In this document: positions 26,153-48,702 of the stretch, piece after piece
Layout of the letters: the number at the start of each line of letters is the position of its first letter
Position numbering within the stretch: position 1 is the first letter of the stretch
From: a virus
Length of the DNA: 59,659 nt
Strand: one strand, 5' to 3'
Virus record (IMG/VR): IMGVR_UViG_3300027889_000037
Coordinates: 1-59,659 of that record
Notes under the pieces: generated by a model
Told to the model about the DNA's origin: nothing
Database searches by the model: none
What the model saw: only the letters and a program-made list of their open reading frames with translations
Position numbers and translations under genes: made by a program

Positions 26153-29107
26153 ATGGTTGATCTTGCCAGTGTAGGACCCGAAGGCGTCACCGCGGACCTG
26201 GAGAAAGCGCCTCCAGCCGTGACCGATGCCGATTCCTATGAGAAGATCGCTGCCGGCACCGACTACCTCGATCCCAAGGGCAACAAGCGGACCAAGCCGT
26301 ATCGGGTGAAGGACGCGGACGAATATGCCGCGCTCCCCGAAGGCGTGCCGTACATCGACCCCGAGGGCAACTCGCGCACGTCGCCGAAGTACGAAGACCT
26401 CGATTTCACCACTCAAACGCTCTATAACATGAGCGTGAACGACGCCGAGCGCAAGAAAGCGCTGGAGCGCGGCTACCCCGGCAAGGTCAAGACCAACAAG
26501 CAAACCGGCGAGATGTACGTCGATGAGGACGGCACCTTGCGCCGTTCGCGCGGTTACAACAAGTCGCCGATGTCGTTTATCACCTCGCAGGCGGCGCCCG
26601 TCGCTGGTTCAATCACAGGCGAGATTGGCGGCGGGATTGCAGGCGGCATAGGCGGGTCGGTCGTGCCCGGAGCAGGTACGGCAGCAGGCGCAACAGTTGG
26701 TGCGATTGCCGGCGGTGCTGCCGGCGGTGCTGCCGGGCAAGGCTTCAACGACGCGATCCTGGAACTGGCCGGCGTGTACGATAGAACCAAGACCGAGGAA
26801 GCGGGCGAGCTGGGCATGGCTGGCCTGTTTGGCGGGGTCGGCACGGCTGCCGGGCGCGGCTTGGCGGCGGCAGCGCCTGCCATTAAGGGCGCGGTCAAGA
26901 ATGCACTGCCGAAGGTAGTGGGCGATTTCTTAGGCGAGACGCCGGAAAATATCTCACAAGCCAGTGCCCTGCGGGACAAGGGCGTCATGGTGCCGCCATC
27001 GGCCCACATGAAAGAGGCGCCGCATGTCATCAACGTGTCCGAGCGCTTCGATCCTGCGTTTCGCACCCAGGACCCGTTGCTGCAATCGGCGACCGAGCAT
27101 TACGAGAAGTCGGGTAAGGATATCCTCAACACGCTTTCCGGCGATGCTGGGCCTCCCAACGTCAAGTCGCTGACCGATCCGAAGGCGGCAGTGTCCACCG
27201 AGCGAGCGGGCGAGGCTGTGCTGGGTCGCACGCGCGACGAGTTGCGCAAGGCGGATGAAGCATTGCGCCAGGCGCTCGAAGCTAAGCGCGCAAACCTGGC
27301 TGGCTCGATGCAGGAGCGCGTCGCAGCGCAGGAGTCGCAAACCCGGCAGCTCGAAACGGCGGCGGCCGAGGCGCGCAAGGCGGCGCAAGGGGTGATCGAT
27401 GCCGGGTTCCAGGAGATCGACAAGTCCAGCCAAGCCGCGATGGATGCCGTTAAGGCCGGACATAATGGCGGAACCCTTTGGCAGCAGGTTGCCGAGAAAA
27501 TACAGAAGGTGCGCGCCGGTATCATGGGCCGCGCCAACAAGATGTATTCCGAAGCGGACTCGCTGGCCGGCGGGTTGAAGCCGGACATTAGCGGCCTGCC
27601 AGAACGCGCGCAGGCATTTCTCGATCAGTTGCCGGAGGGCTTTGAGGGCAAGTATCCGACCATCATCAAGCAGCTCCGCGACATGGCGGGCGAAGTGGAC
27701 GAGGAAGGCAAGGTTGTTCGCGAACCGGCACAACCGACGTGGGCGCAGTTGCATAATCTGCGTTCGGTGATGCGGCAGAACTATAACCGCCTCGACCTGA
27801 CGCCCGACGTGAAGCAAGGCACGTTCAAGTTTTTTGCTAATCGCGTCGATGAAATCCTTAATGATGCAAACGCCGTGCCCGAGTTGAAGGCAGCGGCCAA
27901 GCAGCTCCGCGAAGCCGACAACTTTTATCGCGAGAACATGGGTGCGTTCAACGACAAGCGCATCCAGGCGGTGATGGATGGCCTAGACGCCGGTCTGCCC
28001 GCTGATCCGAAAGTGCTGTTCGACACCATCGTCAAGGAAGGCCGCTCGGATCTGACGAGGAAAGTGTCCGAGATGGTCGGTCCCAACCTGTGGGCCGGGG
28101 TCAAGGCGGCCGACGTGCGCGAGATGCTGGAACAATCCAAGTCGGTCACGGGCGAGATCGACGGCAAGCGGTTCGTGTCACAAGTGCTGGAGCGCTACCG
28201 CAGCGGGATGCTGGAAGCGGTTCACGGCAAAGAAGTCACGCAGAAATTGCTTCAGCAGGCGCAGAACATCGAGGCGTTGGCTGGGCGCCTGAACATTCCG
28301 GTTCGTCCCGGCGACACGATTCGTGATGTGATCGAGACCGCGCGTGCCGCAGGCGAGGCTGCCAAGGCCGCCGCCAAGCAGGACCCGCTGGGCACTTTGA
28401 CCCGTGAGATGAAGGGTATCGAACGGCAACTTGCAGCGACCAAGCAGACCGCGCGCAAGAATTTGAAGACCAACAATGCGCTCGACTTCCTCTACGATGA
28501 GTCGGTTGGCGCGTCCGAGGCTGTGGACAAGATTCTCGGCAGCGAGGATTTGATTATTGCCGCTGCCTCTAAGTTTGGGCCGAGTTCGCCTGAATTCAAC
28601 CTATTGCGCCAGACGTGGGCGCAAAAGCTGCTCACTGGTACGCTGACGCCGAGTAGCAAGTTGGCGAAGGTTTCCGAGGAAGTGCAACGTATCATGTTTC
28701 CCGGCGTCAGCCTCGATCAGATGAAGACGCTGGCGAAAGAGATGGACTTTCTCATGGGCACACGCGGCAGCATGGGTCAGAGCATGGCCGGCGGCCTCGC
28801 GGCGATGTCCAAGGTCGAGCATCCGTGGTCCAGTATCATCGGAAAAGGTGGCGAATATCTGCCCAAGATACCGTTTGCCGATGCTGGTGGCCGTTACGTG
28901 TTGGGCAAGTATTTCAAGTTTGTCACCAACATCGCGAACAACCCCGCATTCTTGCGTTGGATCGAGAAGGGGCTTAAGGGTGACGATCGGGCACGCGAGA
29001 TGGTCAAGGAATTGGTGCAGCGGCGCATGAAGATCGGCGGCGCGATGGGCGCGGGCGTCGGCGAATCGCAATTCCAGACGCCAAACCAAAACACGATGCT
29101 GCAATGA
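26153..29107 (+). CDS. Large internal virion/ejection protein 3
   Basis: 984 residues. Near the N-terminus there are two copies of a GTDYLDPKGNKRTKPY / GVPYIDPEGNSRTSPKY motif, seen in very large phage ejection proteins. Residues about 145-200 form a glycine-zipper hydrophobic stretch (GEIGGGIAGGIGG and following) able to enter a membrane. The rest is helical with coiled coils. Size and place match podovirus gp16-like core proteins, but I see no transglycosylase motif. It overlaps the next gene by 4 nt. Confidence 0.65.
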   Translation: MVDLASVGPEGVTADLEKAPPAVTDADSYEKIAAGTDYLDPKGNKRTKPYRVKDADEYAALPEGVPYIDPEGNSRTSPKYEDLDFTTQTLYNMSVNDAERKKALERGYPGKVKTNKQTGEMYVDEDGTLRRSRGYNKSPMSFITSQAAPVAGSITGEIGGGIAGGIGGSVVPGAGTAAGATVGAIAGGAAGGAAGQGFNDAILELAGVYDRTKTEEAGELGMAGLFGGVGTAAGRGLAAAAPAIKGAVKNALPKVVGDFLGETPENISQASALRDKGVMVPPSAHMKEAPHVINVSERFDPAFRTQDPLLQSATEHYEKSGKDILNTLSGDAGPPNVKSLTDPKAAVSTERAGEAVLGRTRDELRKADEALRQALEAKRANLAGSMQERVAAQESQTRQLETAAAEARKAAQGVIDAGFQEIDKSSQAAMDAVKAGHNGGTLWQQVAEKIQKVRAGIMGRANKMYSEADSLAGGLKPDISGLPERAQAFLDQLPEGFEGKYPTIIKQLRDMAGEVDEEGKVVREPAQPTWAQLHNLRSVMRQNYNRLDLTPDVKQGTFKFFANRVDEILNDANAVPELKAAAKQLREADNFYRENMGAFNDKRIQAVMDGLDAGLPADPKVLFDTIVKEGRSDLTRKVSEMVGPNLWAGVKAADVREMLEQSKSVTGEIDGKRFVSQVLERYRSGMLEAVHGKEVTQKLLQQAQNIEALAGRLNIPVRPGDTIRDVIETARAAGEAAKAAAKQDPLGTLTREMKGIERQLAATKQTARKNLKTNNALDFLYDESVGASEAVDKILGSEDLIIAAASKFGPSSPEFNLLRQTWAQKLLTGTLTPSSKLAKVSEEVQRIMFPGVSLDQMKTLAKEMDFLMGTRGSMGQSMAGGLAAMSKVEHPWSSIIGKGGEYLPKIPFADAGGRYVLGKYFKFVTNIANNPAFLRWIEKGLKGDDRAREMVKELVQRRMKIGGAMGAGVGESQFQTPNQNTMLQ

Positions 29108-39714: not shown

Positions 39715-39903
39715 TCATTCGGCAACAACGGTTTCAAGAGCGCGTAAAGCATATCGCGCGTTTATTTCGCGCGTCGAAGCCTCGTTCACGGCTTTGTTTG
39801 CTGCCTGCAATTCCGCGATCACCTTAGATTGGTATTCGACCATGGCGGCATATGAGCGCTCGGCACATTCTAGTTCCAGTCTGGCGGCTTCAAGTTTTGT
39901 CAT
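39715..39903 (-). CDS. Small coiled-coil protein
   Basis: 62 residues from ATG 39903, which overlaps the integrase stop (TGATG). Nearly all helical: KLEAARLELECAERSYAAMV then KVIAELQAANKAVNEAST. Function unknown. Confidence 0.58.
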   Translation of the reverse strand: MTKLEAARLELECAERSYAAMVEYQSKVIAELQAANKAVNEASTREINARYALRALETVVAE

Positions 39904-40901
39904 CACGCCACCTTCTCGCTGCTCTTTTCCATCCGCATCCGCTGCACGGTATGGGTGTTCTCCCGGCTGGCGCGGCTGTAGTCCATTGTCTGCGATACGT
40001 CGCTGTGTGTAGCGGCATCGCGGACATGCGCAGCCTGGGCGCCCATGGCGATGGCTTCGCTGATCGCACCGGCCCGCGCGTCGCGGTTTTGCACATTCAA
40101 CGGCACGCCACACTCGGTCGCGATGATCCGCCATTCTTCGCGGAAGTCATCGGCTTTATATGGGAAGCCGGTGTATTCATCGATAATCACGGGGCCGCTC
40201 GCCGGCAGCAATAATCGATCGGCAGAGCATCCCGGCCACATATGCTCAAGCTCGGCCATGACCAGCGGCGCCAATGTCAGGTCCGGCTCGGATAGTTTCT
40301 TGCGCTTGCTCGTGACGTGATGGACGACAAAATCAGCGCCGATTTCTTCCCAGCGCAGACCCTTGAGCCACTTCATTGGACCTTTTCGCGGGTGCATCGA
40401 GCAAACGTCCGACAGGCCCGGTTCGCCAATCGGCAGCCATTCGCCGAGAACGTCCTTCTGCCGCCAAGTGCATTCAAATTGGAGGGCCTGTGCGAGCCCG
40501 ACCATCGGGAGGCGCGGGCGCGCGGCGTTGCAAATCGCGGTTGCTTGCTCGCGGGTGATGTGGACCGTTCGCGGCTTGCCGTTGGCGAAGCGGCCTTTGC
40601 TCAGTAGCAGCCCGAGGCGCTGGCAGGCTTCGTCATCGAGCGCGAAGAAGCCGAAGTTGGCGAGCGTGCGCAGCATCCCGATCAGCGCATGGCCCATCGA
40701 AACCTTCCGGCCGCCGTCGCTCCATTGCTGATGCCATTCGTAGATCGTCCGGCCCTTGATGGTCGCCACATCTACGTCGCCGTGGGCGCGCTCGATCTGT
40801 GTCATGAGCCGGACGTAGTATTGCCGCGTGCAGTATTCGAGCTTGGCGAAGTTCGATACTGGGTCGGTGCGGTAAGCGGACATGAGTTCATTGAGACGCA
40901 T
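39903..40901 (-). CDS. int: Tyrosine recombinase (integrase)
   Basis: 332 residues. N-terminal SAM-like core-binding region, then a catalytic domain with Arg147 (ECTWRQKD), Lys near 199 (TSKRKK), Arg276 (RDARAGA), His299 (THSDVSQ) and the nucleophile Tyr308 (TMDYSR). The usual HxxR box reads RDAR, so the first catalytic His is replaced. It would integrate or excise the phage genome, or resolve multimers. It overlaps a small upstream gene by 14 nt. The flanking gap at 41.08-41.32 kb could hold an attachment site, but I cannot identify one. Confidence 0.85.
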   Translation of the reverse strand: MRLNELMSAYRTDPVSNFAKLEYCTRQYYVRLMTQIERAHGDVDVATIKGRTIYEWHQQWSDGGRKVSMGHALIGMLRTLANFGFFALDDEACQRLGLLLSKGRFANGKPRTVHITREQATAICNAARPRLPMVGLAQALQFECTWRQKDVLGEWLPIGEPGLSDVCSMHPRKGPMKWLKGLRWEEIGADFVVHHVTSKRKKLSEPDLTLAPLVMAELEHMWPGCSADRLLLPASGPVIIDEYTGFPYKADDFREEWRIIATECGVPLNVQNRDARAGAISEAIAMGAQAAHVRDAATHSDVSQTMDYSRASRENTHTVQRMRMEKSSEKVA

Positions 40902-41320: not shown

Positions 41321-41767
41321 TCAGTTAACCGCCAACTCCCACAGCGGCGGAAATAGATCGTCGGGTATGGCGAACATCCCCTGCTGGCCCCTATATGGAA
41401 TTGGCTCGGTCAGCAGATGAAAGTCGCTGCGCTCCCAAGCATAGCGGCCTTCCGAAAAATCTCCGCACTCGCGATCATCGTCATTCGCTGCTGTACACCC
41501 AAACAGTTCATGCACTGTCGGCTTGCAGGCAACGATCTTGACCGCGCCAATGATAGCGCCGCGCGGCAATTCCAGGCCCCAATGATTTCCCCAAATACCA
41601 TCACAGATTTCATCAAGGCGGTCGCCGCTGAAATCATCGATCCGGCGCTTGGCGGCATGAACGGCAAGCCATCCGCGATGCGAAGTGGGCCAGTGGCGCG
41701 TCTCATGGACTTTGGCGTCGGATAGCCAAAGCGACGCCCACGGTTGCCAGAGTGAAATTGCCTTCAT
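41321..41767 (-). CDS. ASCH-domain protein
   Basis: 148 residues. MKAISLWQPWASLW, then HETRHWPTSHRGWLAVHAAK and GAIIGAVKIV are the classic ASCH (PUA-like) blocks, followed by the C-terminal strand PYRGQQGMFAIPD. ASCH proteins bind RNA or modified nucleotides; some are RNases. In phages they are common early proteins. Its stop faces the terminator of small RNA A. Confidence 0.85.
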   Translation of the reverse strand: MKAISLWQPWASLWLSDAKVHETRHWPTSHRGWLAVHAAKRRIDDFSGDRLDEICDGIWGNHWGLELPRGAIIGAVKIVACKPTVHELFGCTAANDDDRECGDFSEGRYAWERSDFHLLTEPIPYRGQQGMFAIPDDLFPPLWELAVN

Positions 41768-41803: not shown

Positions 41804-42862
41804 TTAAGCCGCAGCCTCTTTACGTGCGGCGATCATGCCGCGCAGTTCTTGTTTACTCTCTGGGGACATCGAATAGCCGCGACCCCAATGGGTCTCAATT
41901 TGCAACCCATGCGGTTCAATCTTTGCTCTGATTTTGCAAACGAACACGTCCACAATTTTAATCTCTGGCGCATCATCCGCCCGATCCGAATAAAGGGCAG
42001 TCAAGATCGCCTCTTTGGACATGATGTCGCGCGAGAGCAACGCGGACACGACACGTTCCTCGCTTGCAGTCAGCTTTAGTTCCGGCGGCAACAGTTCTTT
42101 GCCGTTCATTGTTTCTTCAAGCATTCTAACACGTTCGCGCAATTCTTCATTTTCTTCCTCTACCAGAGAGCGACGCAAGGCAGGATCATGCTTGAAGCGT
42201 CCGAAACTCTCCCACGATTCGTTGATGGCCTCTGCCATATATTTGATGTGTTCGCCTAGCAGAGCAGAAGCCGAAACGGCTTCTTCATTGCTGTATTTTT
42301 GAACCCACTCGACAAGCTCACCAAGCGCACCATTTATTGGAATAGGCGCTGCATCGGCCAAGTCTGCGCGAAACTCGGCCACCTGATTGAAGATCGGAAC
42401 CAAGAACGACTTTGCGTTTTGAAACGCTGCAAGATGAGAATACTTGACCCGCCACGCGTCCACTTCGCGGAGTGCAGCCAAGATTTCATCGTTCGGCGAG
42501 CGGACAATTTCAATTGACCGCTCGTCCTCGTCCCAACCGGCCGCGTCGCCTTCGTGCTGCTTAACCGCAACACGGTAGGCTCGTGTCGCATATTCCTTGC
42601 CTTCGCTGACAAAGCGCACGCGCACAGCGTTTATCATGTGGTTGGCTTGGCCGACGCGATATTGATGGGCGGCTTTTTTATCGTCCCACTCAAAATAGCC
42701 GCGTAGCGGGCTGTTGGCGGAGTGGGCAGCCTGCACAACAGCTTCCGCCGTCACATCGCCATCTGTCGCAATCTCTTGGAGCACAGGGCCAATGGCCCGC
42801 GCATCGTCGTTGGAGAACGACGATCCAGTTAGGGCAAAGTATTCTTTGATCGATATAGTCAT
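41804..42862 (-). CDS. Protein with CtrA-like winged-helix DNA-binding domain
   Basis: 352 residues. The C-terminal part (about residues 260-335) matches the OmpR-type winged helix and most closely the alphaproteobacterial cell-cycle regulator CtrA: LTASEERVVSALL, SKEAILTALYSD, PEIKIVDVFVCKIRAKI and the wing THWGRGYSM. There is no receiver domain; instead a coiled coil (residues 235-255) and a helical N-terminus with EWDDKKAAHQYRV. It may bind CtrA-type sites to alter host cell-cycle genes or control the phage. The iteron-like repeats lie directly upstream of its start. Confidence 0.72.
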   Translation of the reverse strand: MTISIKEYFALTGSSFSNDDARAIGPVLQEIATDGDVTAEAVVQAAHSANSPLRGYFEWDDKKAAHQYRVGQANHMINAVRVRFVSEGKEYATRAYRVAVKQHEGDAAGWDEDERSIEIVRSPNDEILAALREVDAWRVKYSHLAAFQNAKSFLVPIFNQVAEFRADLADAAPIPINGALGELVEWVQKYSNEEAVSASALLGEHIKYMAEAINESWESFGRFKHDPALRRSLVEEENEELRERVRMLEETMNGKELLPPELKLTASEERVVSALLSRDIMSKEAILTALYSDRADDAPEIKIVDVFVCKIRAKIEPHGLQIETHWGRGYSMSPESKQELRGMIAARKEAAA

Positions 42863-42924
42863 GTCATTTCGATTGTCGTGTCGGCATTGCTACGCGCGTC
42901 TCTGCAACTCAAATCGGCTCTTTT

Positions 42925-43192
42925 GGTAAAGGGCCAAACAAAACATTTCTTCTCAGTTGTTCGGTTGTCCATTGTCGTCGCATGTAAGCTTTTCTTATCA
43001 AATGACAAAGGGACAAAACTTTTCATTTCATCGGTCGTGTCGTCTTTGCATCGGTTCTCGCGTGTCATCGGCTCGGCGGTTCTCGCTTCTGCTCTTATGA
43101 TAAATGGACAAACAATTCATTTGCTTTCGGATGTTTTGTCATCGGCTCTTCTCTCAGCAAGTCTCCTGGTAAATGGACAAACATTTCATTTC
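42925..43192. repeat. Four iteron-like repeats in a 444-bp non-coding gap
   Basis: The gap 42863-43306 holds no convincing gene. Four imperfect copies of a 25-33 bp unit lie at about 42925-42949, 42996-43029, 43093-43122 and 43162-43192; the shared core reads GGTAAATGGACAAACATTTC. Spacing is about 78, 95 and 69 bp. A second short repeat, CATCGG(C/T)TC, lies between copies. On the reverse strand each copy contains an ATG-led mini-frame (for example MKCLSIYQETC), so the array might also encode tiny peptides. Location upstream of a DNA-binding protein gene fits an origin or operator array. Confidence 0.65.
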
Positions 43193-43306
43193 AGTTGACC
43201 GCTCGTCCTTTCAAAGCACATCAGGGATTTTGGCCTCTTTTCTTATATCTCGTCTGAGGTCTTCTGGTCGGTTCAACGCATAGCAAATCGACTCTGCTCT
43301 TGTGTT

Positions 43307-46520: not shown

Positions 46521-46688
46521 TTACTCCTTAGTCTTGGGTTGTTCAAAAATTTCTTTGGGCAACGTCTTTTCGTAAATAATGTGATCGCCGTAGCCCATCC
46601 AGATCACATCAACTGTCGTTTCGCCAACTGCTTTTACCGTCATCCGGGATGAACCGGAAGGAAGTGCAAGCACGTCTCCAACTTTCAT
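46521..46688 (-). CDS. DUF2158/YodC-like small protein
   Basis: 55 residues starting at ATG 46688. MKVGDVLALPSGSSRMTVKA followed by VDVIWMG is the DUF2158 (YodC) pattern, a small beta barrel that reads KVGDVVxLKSGGPxMTV in its usual form. Its ATG shares a base with the stop of the gene upstream. Role unknown. Confidence 0.72.
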   Translation of the reverse strand: MKVGDVLALPSGSSRMTVKAVGETTVDVIWMGYGDHIIYEKTLPKEIFEQPKTKE

Positions 46689-47083
46689 CACGACCTCCTG
46701 ATATTCACCCTATTAAAATAGCTGACCTCAATACCAGGAGGCGGCTGGTTCTTGTTGTCTTCCAGATACTGCTTGAGCGCGTCCTTCTGCGGTGCGCCGA
46801 CTTGCAGCAGCTCATTGCCGATGGCGTCCCAGTTCTCGTTCACGAAATCGAGGTACTTGTCGCGGTCGATCACCTTGGGAGTGGTGATGGTCGAGATGTA
46901 CGCGGTGCCATTGTCCGTAGACATAGAGTTTTGCTTCTGTTCGTGCATCATGCCGAGCAGGATGCCCTTGATCTCGTCCATGCGCTTCTTGTGCGGGGCA
47001 AGGTGTTCGGCGAAGCGCTTGGACTCAGCAGCGCACCAATCGTCCAGCTTGGTGTGTTCGGCGATAAGTTCAGCGGCATTCAT
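46688..47083 (-). CDS. Replication-region helical protein
   Basis: 131 residues, helical N-terminal 60 residues (AELIAEHTKLDDWCAAESKR...RMDEIKGILLGMM) and a charged C-terminus. Its layout is similar to small phage proteins of the Gam/Gp157 kind that sit beside recombination nucleases, but I cannot assign it. Overlaps the helicase stop by 4 nt. Confidence 0.6.
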   Translation of the reverse strand: MNAAELIAEHTKLDDWCAAESKRFAEHLAPHKKRMDEIKGILLGMMHEQKQNSMSTDNGTAYISTITTPKVIDRDKYLDFVNENWDAIGNELLQVGAPQKDALKQYLEDNKNQPPPGIEVSYFNRVNIRRS

Positions 47084-48702
47084 AGCGCGTTCGCTTTCAC
47101 TAGGTCGAGCAAAGCGCCTTGAAGCGCCAGATTGTTCTCAAGTCTCCGGAAGATTTCTCTTTCGAGAGGGTTGCTGACAAGTTGGACGACGGTGGTTGGG
47201 AAGCGCTGTCCGGGTCTCTGCATCCTAGCGTTTGCTTGAGCGTACAATTCCGGTTTTTCCGTAACGCCGAACCAAATGGACAGCCGAGCGCGCCACAAAT
47301 CAAGGCCATGCGCCATAGTTTGCGGATCAGCAACAATATCGTCAAGCTCATCGCTTTCCTGGAAAGCCCTAAAAATCTCGCTGCGTTGCTTCTGGCTAAC
47401 ATCGCCGTTCACGATGGCTATGGATCGGTATTTCTTGACGTTCTTATAGATGATGTTGATAACACTTGTCAACGGGCAAAATATCAGCGACTTTCCAGGG
47501 GCTTGCTGTAGCACTTCCTCCAGCTCGGCGTGGCGAGGACTGGCGTCGATCACATGGACCTTGTGATTCTGGTCGTAGATCGCGCCGAGGCTGATTTGGA
47601 CTAACTTGATGCGAGCAGCAGCCTCGTTGACCGCCGAGATGGCAGCGCCAGATTTGACCGTAACCACGAAATCCTTCTTGAGATCGGCCATCAGCTTCTT
47701 TTGTTCTGCTGTTAACTCCACCTCGCGTTGCTGCGTAGTGAGTTTAGGGCCGTCCCAAACATCCTCAATAGCGAAGCGAATAGACGGCTTCAATAGCGCG
47801 CGGGCTCTCTCGTAACCGTCCTTGCGCGGGACCCATTTGAAGCTCTTGGGCGCGACCTGATACATCGTCTCCATCTGGAACGACTGCTTTGATTTGCCAA
47901 AAGCGTTGTTCAGGAGCTTGGCGAGGCCATACGCATCGGTAGGCGCATTAGGGGTGGGGGTTCCGGTAAGCAACCAAAGATACCCCTTTCGTCCAAACAC
48001 TGCTCTGGCAATTCGATGGCGCTTGGTGGTCGAGTCCTTATAGGCGGAAGCCTCATCGATGATACAAATTGCGATGTCGCCCCGTTCCGAGAGTTGCTTA
48101 GAAAAACCATCAAGCTCGAAACGTTTCCTTGTATGTGCTCCCACCCCAACTCCATCGAAGTTGACGATATAGAAGTCGGCAGGTCTTGCCAGAGCCTTAC
48201 TGCGAGCAGCGGCATCGCCGTGGAGGATTTCAACCGTGCGCGCGCCGAGGAAGTTTTTAAATATCCCATCGCTCCACACCCTCTGCATGATCGACAACGG
48301 ACAGACGATAAGCGCCCGACACGTTCCAGGCTTGTGCATTCGCATAACCGCGTCGGCCGCCCACAAGGTCGAGAGCGTCTTACCCACGCCCATATCGGAC
48401 AGCACGAAGCACCGCGGGTGCAGAATCATGAAATTGGTGGTCAGCTTCTGGGACTCGTAGGGATGGCCGATGGAAGGGTGACGGGGCCAGGAATAATTGG
48501 AGTCGGTCAGGACTGGCGGGACTGGGAAGTTGAAGTGCCGAAGGACCTGCGACGTGTGCAGGTTGCGCGGCACCGCCAGATACGAGCCATTCACTTCCCT
48601 GGCCTCGGGGATCGCCTGGCGCAACTGGTCGGTCAGGAATTGCGAGATGCTCCTGTAGATGAGCAAATTCCGAGTCTTGTCGTGGTAGAATTCGCTAGGC
48701 AT
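47080..48702 (-). CDS. SNF2/DEAD-like superfamily 2 helicase
   Basis: 540 residues. Motif I SDMGVGKTLST (about residues 100-110), motif II IIDEAS (about 212), motif III LTGTPTPN, then the second domain with FCPLTS, IVNGDVSQKQR and the final QANARMQRPGQ. This is a compact SNF2-type ATPase common in phage replication clusters. It probably remodels DNA at forks or helps recombination. Its stop and start overlap neighbours (4 and 8 nt). Confidence 0.88.
   Translation of the reverse strand: MPSEFYHDKTRNLLIYRSISQFLTDQLRQAIPEAREVNGSYLAVPRNLHTSQVLRHFNFPVPPVLTDSNYSWPRHPSIGHPYESQKLTTNFMILHPRCFVLSDMGVGKTLSTLWAADAVMRMHKPGTCRALIVCPLSIMQRVWSDGIFKNFLGARTVEILHGDAAARSKALARPADFYIVNFDGVGVGAHTRKRFELDGFSKQLSERGDIAICIIDEASAYKDSTTKRHRIARAVFGRKGYLWLLTGTPTPNAPTDAYGLAKLLNNAFGKSKQSFQMETMYQVAPKSFKWVPRKDGYERARALLKPSIRFAIEDVWDGPKLTTQQREVELTAEQKKLMADLKKDFVVTVKSGAAISAVNEAAARIKLVQISLGAIYDQNHKVHVIDASPRHAELEEVLQQAPGKSLIFCPLTSVINIIYKNVKKYRSIAIVNGDVSQKQRSEIFRAFQESDELDDIVADPQTMAHGLDLWRARLSIWFGVTEKPELYAQANARMQRPGQRFPTTVVQLVSNPLEREIFRRLENNLALQGALLDLVKANAL

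Follow-up and report, generated by a model that had tools for sequence, protein, structure and literature searches.

The DNA analysed here is a window of 59,659 nucleotides from a virus (the whole of IMG/VR record IMGVR_UViG_3300027889_000037), and the gene in question encodes a 352-residue protein that ends in a DNA-binding domain resembling that of CtrA, an alphaproteobacterial response regulator. We propose that this gene is the accessory gene, vap, of a phage-borne VIPR system, that it has been joined to the reading head of CtrA, and that its product serves as a constitutive DNA-binding helper of the Vipr–vrRNA complex; we put the probability of this reading at about 0.82. VIPR, described only in 2026, is RNA-guided gene silencing by Vipr, vap and vrRNAs. 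According to that description (PMC13142463), vrRNAs carry 9–16 pentamers, in which a conserved triplet, either GGY or some related consensus, alternates with a hypervariable dinucleotide (NN), followed by a constant tail. Four sequence features that mark such systems are found at this locus: a RAMP-fold Vipr, an adjoining vap, a pentamer array with a constant tail, and a match of the NN code, read with a one-base skip, to a mobile element (Table 1).

The vipr gene and its accessory gene

The vipr product has a single sequence match in the PDB, the Vipr protein of SUSP1 (36pp, expectation value (E) 8e-4), which belongs to a type II VIPR system. In the other direction, a hidden Markov model (HMM) of the vipr family matches the annotated SUSP1 gene at 28474–29061 of KT454805.2 with E 1.1e-19. 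Its AlphaFold model has a predicted local distance difference test (pLDDT) score of 89, and the top 50 Foldseek hits are all CRISPR RAMP chains of the Csm3/Cas7/Cmr type.

The N-terminal part of the 352-residue protein matches phrog_15946 (PHROGs, residues 27–152), a stand-alone phage protein of ~150–190 residues whose carriers include Mycobacterium and Gordonia phages. A vipr-family gene lies upstream of the phrog_15946 gene and on the same strand in 64 of 79 viral loci, mostly 0–500 bp away, and pentamer arrays of the GGY/NN type lie near most of these loci. Because the 352-residue gene adjoins a Vipr gene, and vipr, vap and vrRNAs together constitute VIPR systems, we identify it as a vap. 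An earlier sequence-only reading had described a helical N-terminus in the place of the CtrA receiver domain. The receiver is indeed absent, but residues 6–170 are more than helical: they make up an alpha/beta domain, modelled with confidence for the most part, that belongs to a known family of phage proteins, with pLDDT mostly 80–96 in residues 1–100 and 120–170 and lower values around residues 101–120. The topology of the model (three helices, a hairpin, then long helices; H-H-H-hairpin) suggests that the Vap domain may have a winged-helix-like fold. A joint alignment of relatives of the N-terminal domain and of the winged helix was misaligned and was therefore left out of the model.

Table 1. 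Positions of the VIPR features in the window (all on the minus strand)
Feature	Position	Strand	Basis or remark
vap gene, 352-residue fusion: Vap domain (phrog_15946), helical linker, coiled coil, CtrA-type winged helix	41804..42862	-	
CtrA/OmpR-type winged helix, residues 257–335	41858..42094	-	Pfam, NCBIfam, CtrA alignment, fold match
Recognition helix, residues 302–318	41909..41959	-	Alignment to 19 CtrA proteins; helix 302–318 in AlphaFold model
Coiled coil, residues 231–256, resembling that of short phage coil plus CtrA-type winged-helix proteins	42095..42172	-	
Vap domain, residues 1–170 (phrog_15946 core 27–152)	42353..42862	-	phrog_15946, E 1.1e-14
Predicted four-vrRNA array between vipr and vap, 444 bp	42863..43306	-	5-nt periodicity, column entropies
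Four conserved vrRNA tails GTTT..TCCMTTTRYCA, starts 43182, 43113, 43019, 42944	42924..43182	-	The repeats of the sequence-only reading
vrRNA w4 guide units, 12	42945..43004	-	NN string equal to that of L002 guide x5
vrRNA w3 guide units, 16 including 2 tail-proximal constant ones	43020..43099	-	IS1595 transposase match
vrRNA w2 guide units, 11	43114..43168	-	
vrRNA w1 guide units (NN: AA GG AA CC TG TT AA CG GG AC ...)	43183..43242	-	More units upstream, 1 nt out of phase
vipr gene, RAMP-fold Vipr protein, 209 residues	43307..43936	-	SUSP1 Vipr HMM match, AlphaFold/Foldseek

The predicted vrRNA array

Nowhere in the window is a period of 5 nt stronger than in the segment between the two genes (0.115 against a mean of -0.002 and a standard deviation of 0.023 over 1481 scanning windows), with a z score of 5.5 here and 6.2 in a sister phage, L002. 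When the units upstream of the conserved tails are stacked, they follow the pattern [GC][AC]NN[ACT], and the entropies of the five columns are 1.16, 1.02, 2.00, 1.93 and 1.76 bits. The window has four predicted vrRNAs and L002 has five, and w4 and the L002 guide x5 have identical NN strings, their four base differences all falling outside the NN columns. At other phrog_15946 loci (L099–L176) the array triplet takes the forms GGC, AGC, GCA, GTT and GAY besides the classic GGY/NN, and the array DNA there gives false repetitive open reading frames (ORFs). The repeats that the sequence-only reading had pointed out at 42925–43192, as places to test for binding, are real, but they are the tails of the four tandem vrRNAs. 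As CtrA sites or operators they were ruled out, given their lack of CtrA half-site spacing and the absence of CtrA-site enrichment in the window and near the relatives' genes.

Decoding of the guides

The published one-base-skip rule was applied to the NN dinucleotides. For w3 the decoded string is GC AG GA GC GC TG CG GA GA AA CG CG GA, and a search of 385 genomes from the class of the Shinella genome G001 returned two sites with 2 mismatches in 26 positions, where reversed controls returned 0 and the chance expectation for such sites was estimated at about 0.002. Gene context was read for some of the target loci, including both of these: each site lies inside an IS1595-type transposase ORF (Pfam PF12762, E 8e-39 for one of the transposases), with the NN bases at codon positions 1–2. 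The unit that precedes the w3 string, TA (Tyr), fits both sites too and brings the match to 26 of 28 positions. Within the family of one target genome, 4 of 119 genomes, one of them counted already, had a site within 3 mismatches in 28 (controls, 0). Only a skip of 1 recovers the transposase sites; a skip of 3 recovers the array itself, and the other skips stay at background. The L002 guide x3 independently has its best fit in these same transposase genes, at another in-frame site (20 of 24 positions against a reversed-control best of 18).

Other candidate targets were discarded. The 4 matches of w4 in the 385 genomes, set against 5 in the reversed control, amount to chance, and the viral contig L178 was ruled out as a w3 target by its mismatched flanking units.

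The CtrA-type winged helix

The receiverless CtrA-like DNA-binding domain that the sequence-only reading had seen at 41804–42862 is confirmed. Pfam Trans_reg_C (PF00486) scores 37.3 bits on residues 261–331, above its cutoff of 26.2 (E 2.8e-9), and the best NCBIfam match is the CtrA model NF045991, over its DNA-binding half only (43 bits, where the cutoff for the full protein is 350). Scans with Pfam, NCBIfam and PHROGs found no receiver domain with a phospho-acceptor Asp. Aligned with CtrA from 19 chromosomes, the DNA-binding domain has an overall identity of 38%, but its recognition helix (K-I-V-D-V-F-V-C-K-I-R-A-K-I) and its wing (I-E-T-H-W-G-R-G-Y-S-M) closely follow CtrA. The closeness of the THWGRGYSM wing to CtrA, noted in the sequence-only reading, is borne out: helix and wing together depart from CtrA only in conservative exchanges among I, V and L and in the replacements K→A, V→H, V→S and L→M.

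OmpR-family DNA-binding domains align to residues 256–338 of the AlphaFold model (Foldseek and VIA-align; Z up to 7.8, root-mean-square deviation 1.8 over 69 residues), and fold matches of the whole model are confined to this C-terminal winged helix. With the receiver absent and the reading residues conserved, any binding of DNA by the domain need not depend on phosphorylation. The protein differs from CtrA in lacking the receiver and its phosphorylation site, in its fusion to a Vap domain and in its surroundings: the window holds 0 exact TTAA-N7-TTAA sites, and 6 with one mismatch against 8.2 expected.

The fusion in a sister phage

L002 carries the same Vap–CtrA-head fusion, at 86% identity, and among the loci retrieved the two domains are combined only there and in the window. 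The two phages share the vipr–array–vap cassette, with Vipr 98% identical, and otherwise match little in the 13 kb compared. The ratio of non-synonymous to synonymous substitution rates (dN/dS) between them is about 0.05 for the whole fused protein, 0.04 for the Vap domain and 0.07 for the winged helix. Since it is low on both, the two halves of the fusion have been kept by purifying selection.

Receiverless CtrA heads in other phages

Among phages, RECEIVERLESS CtrA heads are a common feature. When viral contigs were searched with a profile, 114 relatives were found, 80 of which were kept; after removal of near-duplicates, 67 of 72 lacked a receiver by motif, and all of those 67 have the same D, V, C, K, R and K in the recognition helix. 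Most relatives are 115–140 residues long, and their short N-terminus is in most cases a coiled coil; other N-termini are a zinc ribbon, a ParB-like domain or a helical segment, the last in Paracoccus and Roseobacter phages. In one viral-contig protein (L087) the receiver half is degenerate, and Pfam recovers the DNA-binding domain only. The short proteins resembling phrog_31800 and phrog_731 have the same coil and winged-helix module as the fusion and likewise no receiver; they differ from it in size, in their frequent ParB-like neighbour and in the absence of vipr, neither Vipr nor Vap being found at the other CtrA-head loci examined. TTAA-N7-TTAA is not enriched at the relatives' loci (exact sites, 2 against 0.8 expected; up to one mismatch, 22 against 27.5). 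No account of CtrA proteins that are encoded by phages and lack the receiver turned up in searches of the literature.

A ParB-like gene is found near the CtrA-head gene in 28 loci, the short coil plus CtrA-head genes lying directly downstream of it, as in L030; in L021 the two are fused. A GcrA-like gene is near the CtrA-head gene in 6 loci. In L027 (4554–5309, PF07750 E 1.6e-36), as in the other five, the gene for a receiverless CtrA-type protein is followed by it about 1.2 kb further downstream. Some phages thus hold the DNA-binding parts of two host cell-cycle regulators.

Discussion

The locus resembles the SUSP1 system in its ~20 kDa RAMP-fold Vipr with an adjoining vap, in its array of tandem pentamers with a 3' tail, in the NN code with a one-base skip, and in a mobile-element target matched in codon frame with the skip falling at the wobble base. 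It differs from it in three respects: [ACT][GC][AC] takes the place of the GGY triplet, the accessory protein is a phrog_15946 member with a CtrA-type winged helix attached and not Vap1, and the decoded guide points to the transposase of an insertion sequence where known targets are a phage regulator or a satellite.

If the system works as VIPR does, the vrRNAs would be expressed, Vipr subunits would coat each of them, and the complex would read double-stranded DNA through the NN dinucleotides, one base being skipped between them, so as to block transcription of competing mobile elements; w3 would direct it to transposase genes of the IS1595 family. What sets this lineage apart is that its Vap domain, otherwise of the usual kind, has gained a receiverless CtrA reading head by way of a coiled coil. 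The fused protein may dimerise through the coil and tether or stabilise the Vipr–vrRNA complex on DNA, and most likely the CtrA head would anchor or regulate the silencing complex there. We favour a DNA-binding helper because, according to PMC13142463, SUSP1 Vap1 enhances protection and several vaps are predicted to be DNA-binding proteins. A further idea, which we regard as doubtful, is that capture of the host cell-cycle reading head has equipped the guide complex with a second address, encoded in protein, and that silencing would then be focused on, or timed by, CtrA-controlled promoters.

Several observations weigh against this reading as a whole. The conserved triplet departs from GGY, and we count it as a related consensus under the VIPR definition. 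phrog_15946 shows no homology by HMM to SUSP1 Vap1 and was ruled out as its homologue. No targets were found for w1, w2 and w4 in exact searches of viral contigs, or for w4 in the 385 genomes. That the w4/x5 substitutions should miss the NN columns has a chance probability of about 0.13, and the winged helix is modelled with moderate confidence only (pLDDT about 60).

The nearest alternative is that the Vap fusion is an autoregulator, binding DNA in or near its own locus and setting the expression of vipr and the vrRNAs instead of helping at guide targets. We hold this possible, at well under even odds. OmpR-type winged helices usually act on promoters, and directly upstream of vap there is a long non-coding region whose repeated segments are conserved in both phages; those repeats are, however, explained as vrRNA tails, the genes of the CtrA-head relatives show no nearby excess of one-mismatch CtrA sites, and vipr is packed against the gene upstream of it with a gap of 41 bp only. 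A place for the protein on host DNA, as the sequence-only reading had it, would mean that it sits on the CtrA sites of the host, whatever the state of phosphorylation, and reprogrammes the host cell cycle, the Vap part being incidental. The near identity of recognition helix and wing to those of CtrA speaks for this, as do the spread of receiverless CtrA-type proteins in phages, some beside GcrA homologues, and the known control of phage genes by host CtrA (PMC9437464). What makes it unlikely is the position of the gene in a conserved VIPR accessory slot, a Vap domain under equal constraint, repeats that are predicted guide RNAs, a decoded target in a transposase gene and a window that holds no CtrA site. 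The earlier interpretation therefore stands in part: a receiverless CtrA-type reading head is present and phosphorylation-independent binding is feasible, but a dedicated cell-cycle hijacker is not supported, and cell-cycle hijacking is possible as a role secondary to that of helper. Direct repeats next to a gene for a DNA-binding protein could also be origin iterons or operators, with the protein as a replication initiator. This we consider extremely improbable, given spacers with pentamer periodicity and random NN columns, a RAMP protein as neighbour, decoded spacers that match transposase genes, and a primase-helicase and a polymerase of the phage's own encoded elsewhere; the iteron assignment was dropped once the NN code had matched a gene.

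VIPR accessory proteins are poorly understood, and the fusion is a natural link between DNA reading by guides and a protein whose sequence preference is known, which makes the role of Vap directly testable. The locus also allows the one-base-skip code to be checked in silico in a system whose repeat triplet differs, and it offers a transposable-element target common to guides of two related phages.

Other genes in the window

Directly downstream of vap, an ASCH-like protein is encoded at 41321–41767 on the minus strand (phrog_3193, E 5e-30; Pfam ASCH below cutoff). A divergent tyrosine integrase at 39903–40901, also on the minus strand (phrog_1, E 2.6e-7; Pfam below cutoff), suggests a temperate phage or a derivative of one. 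A Mu Gam-like end-protection protein (46688–47083, minus strand) adjoins a DNA helicase gene at 47080–48702.
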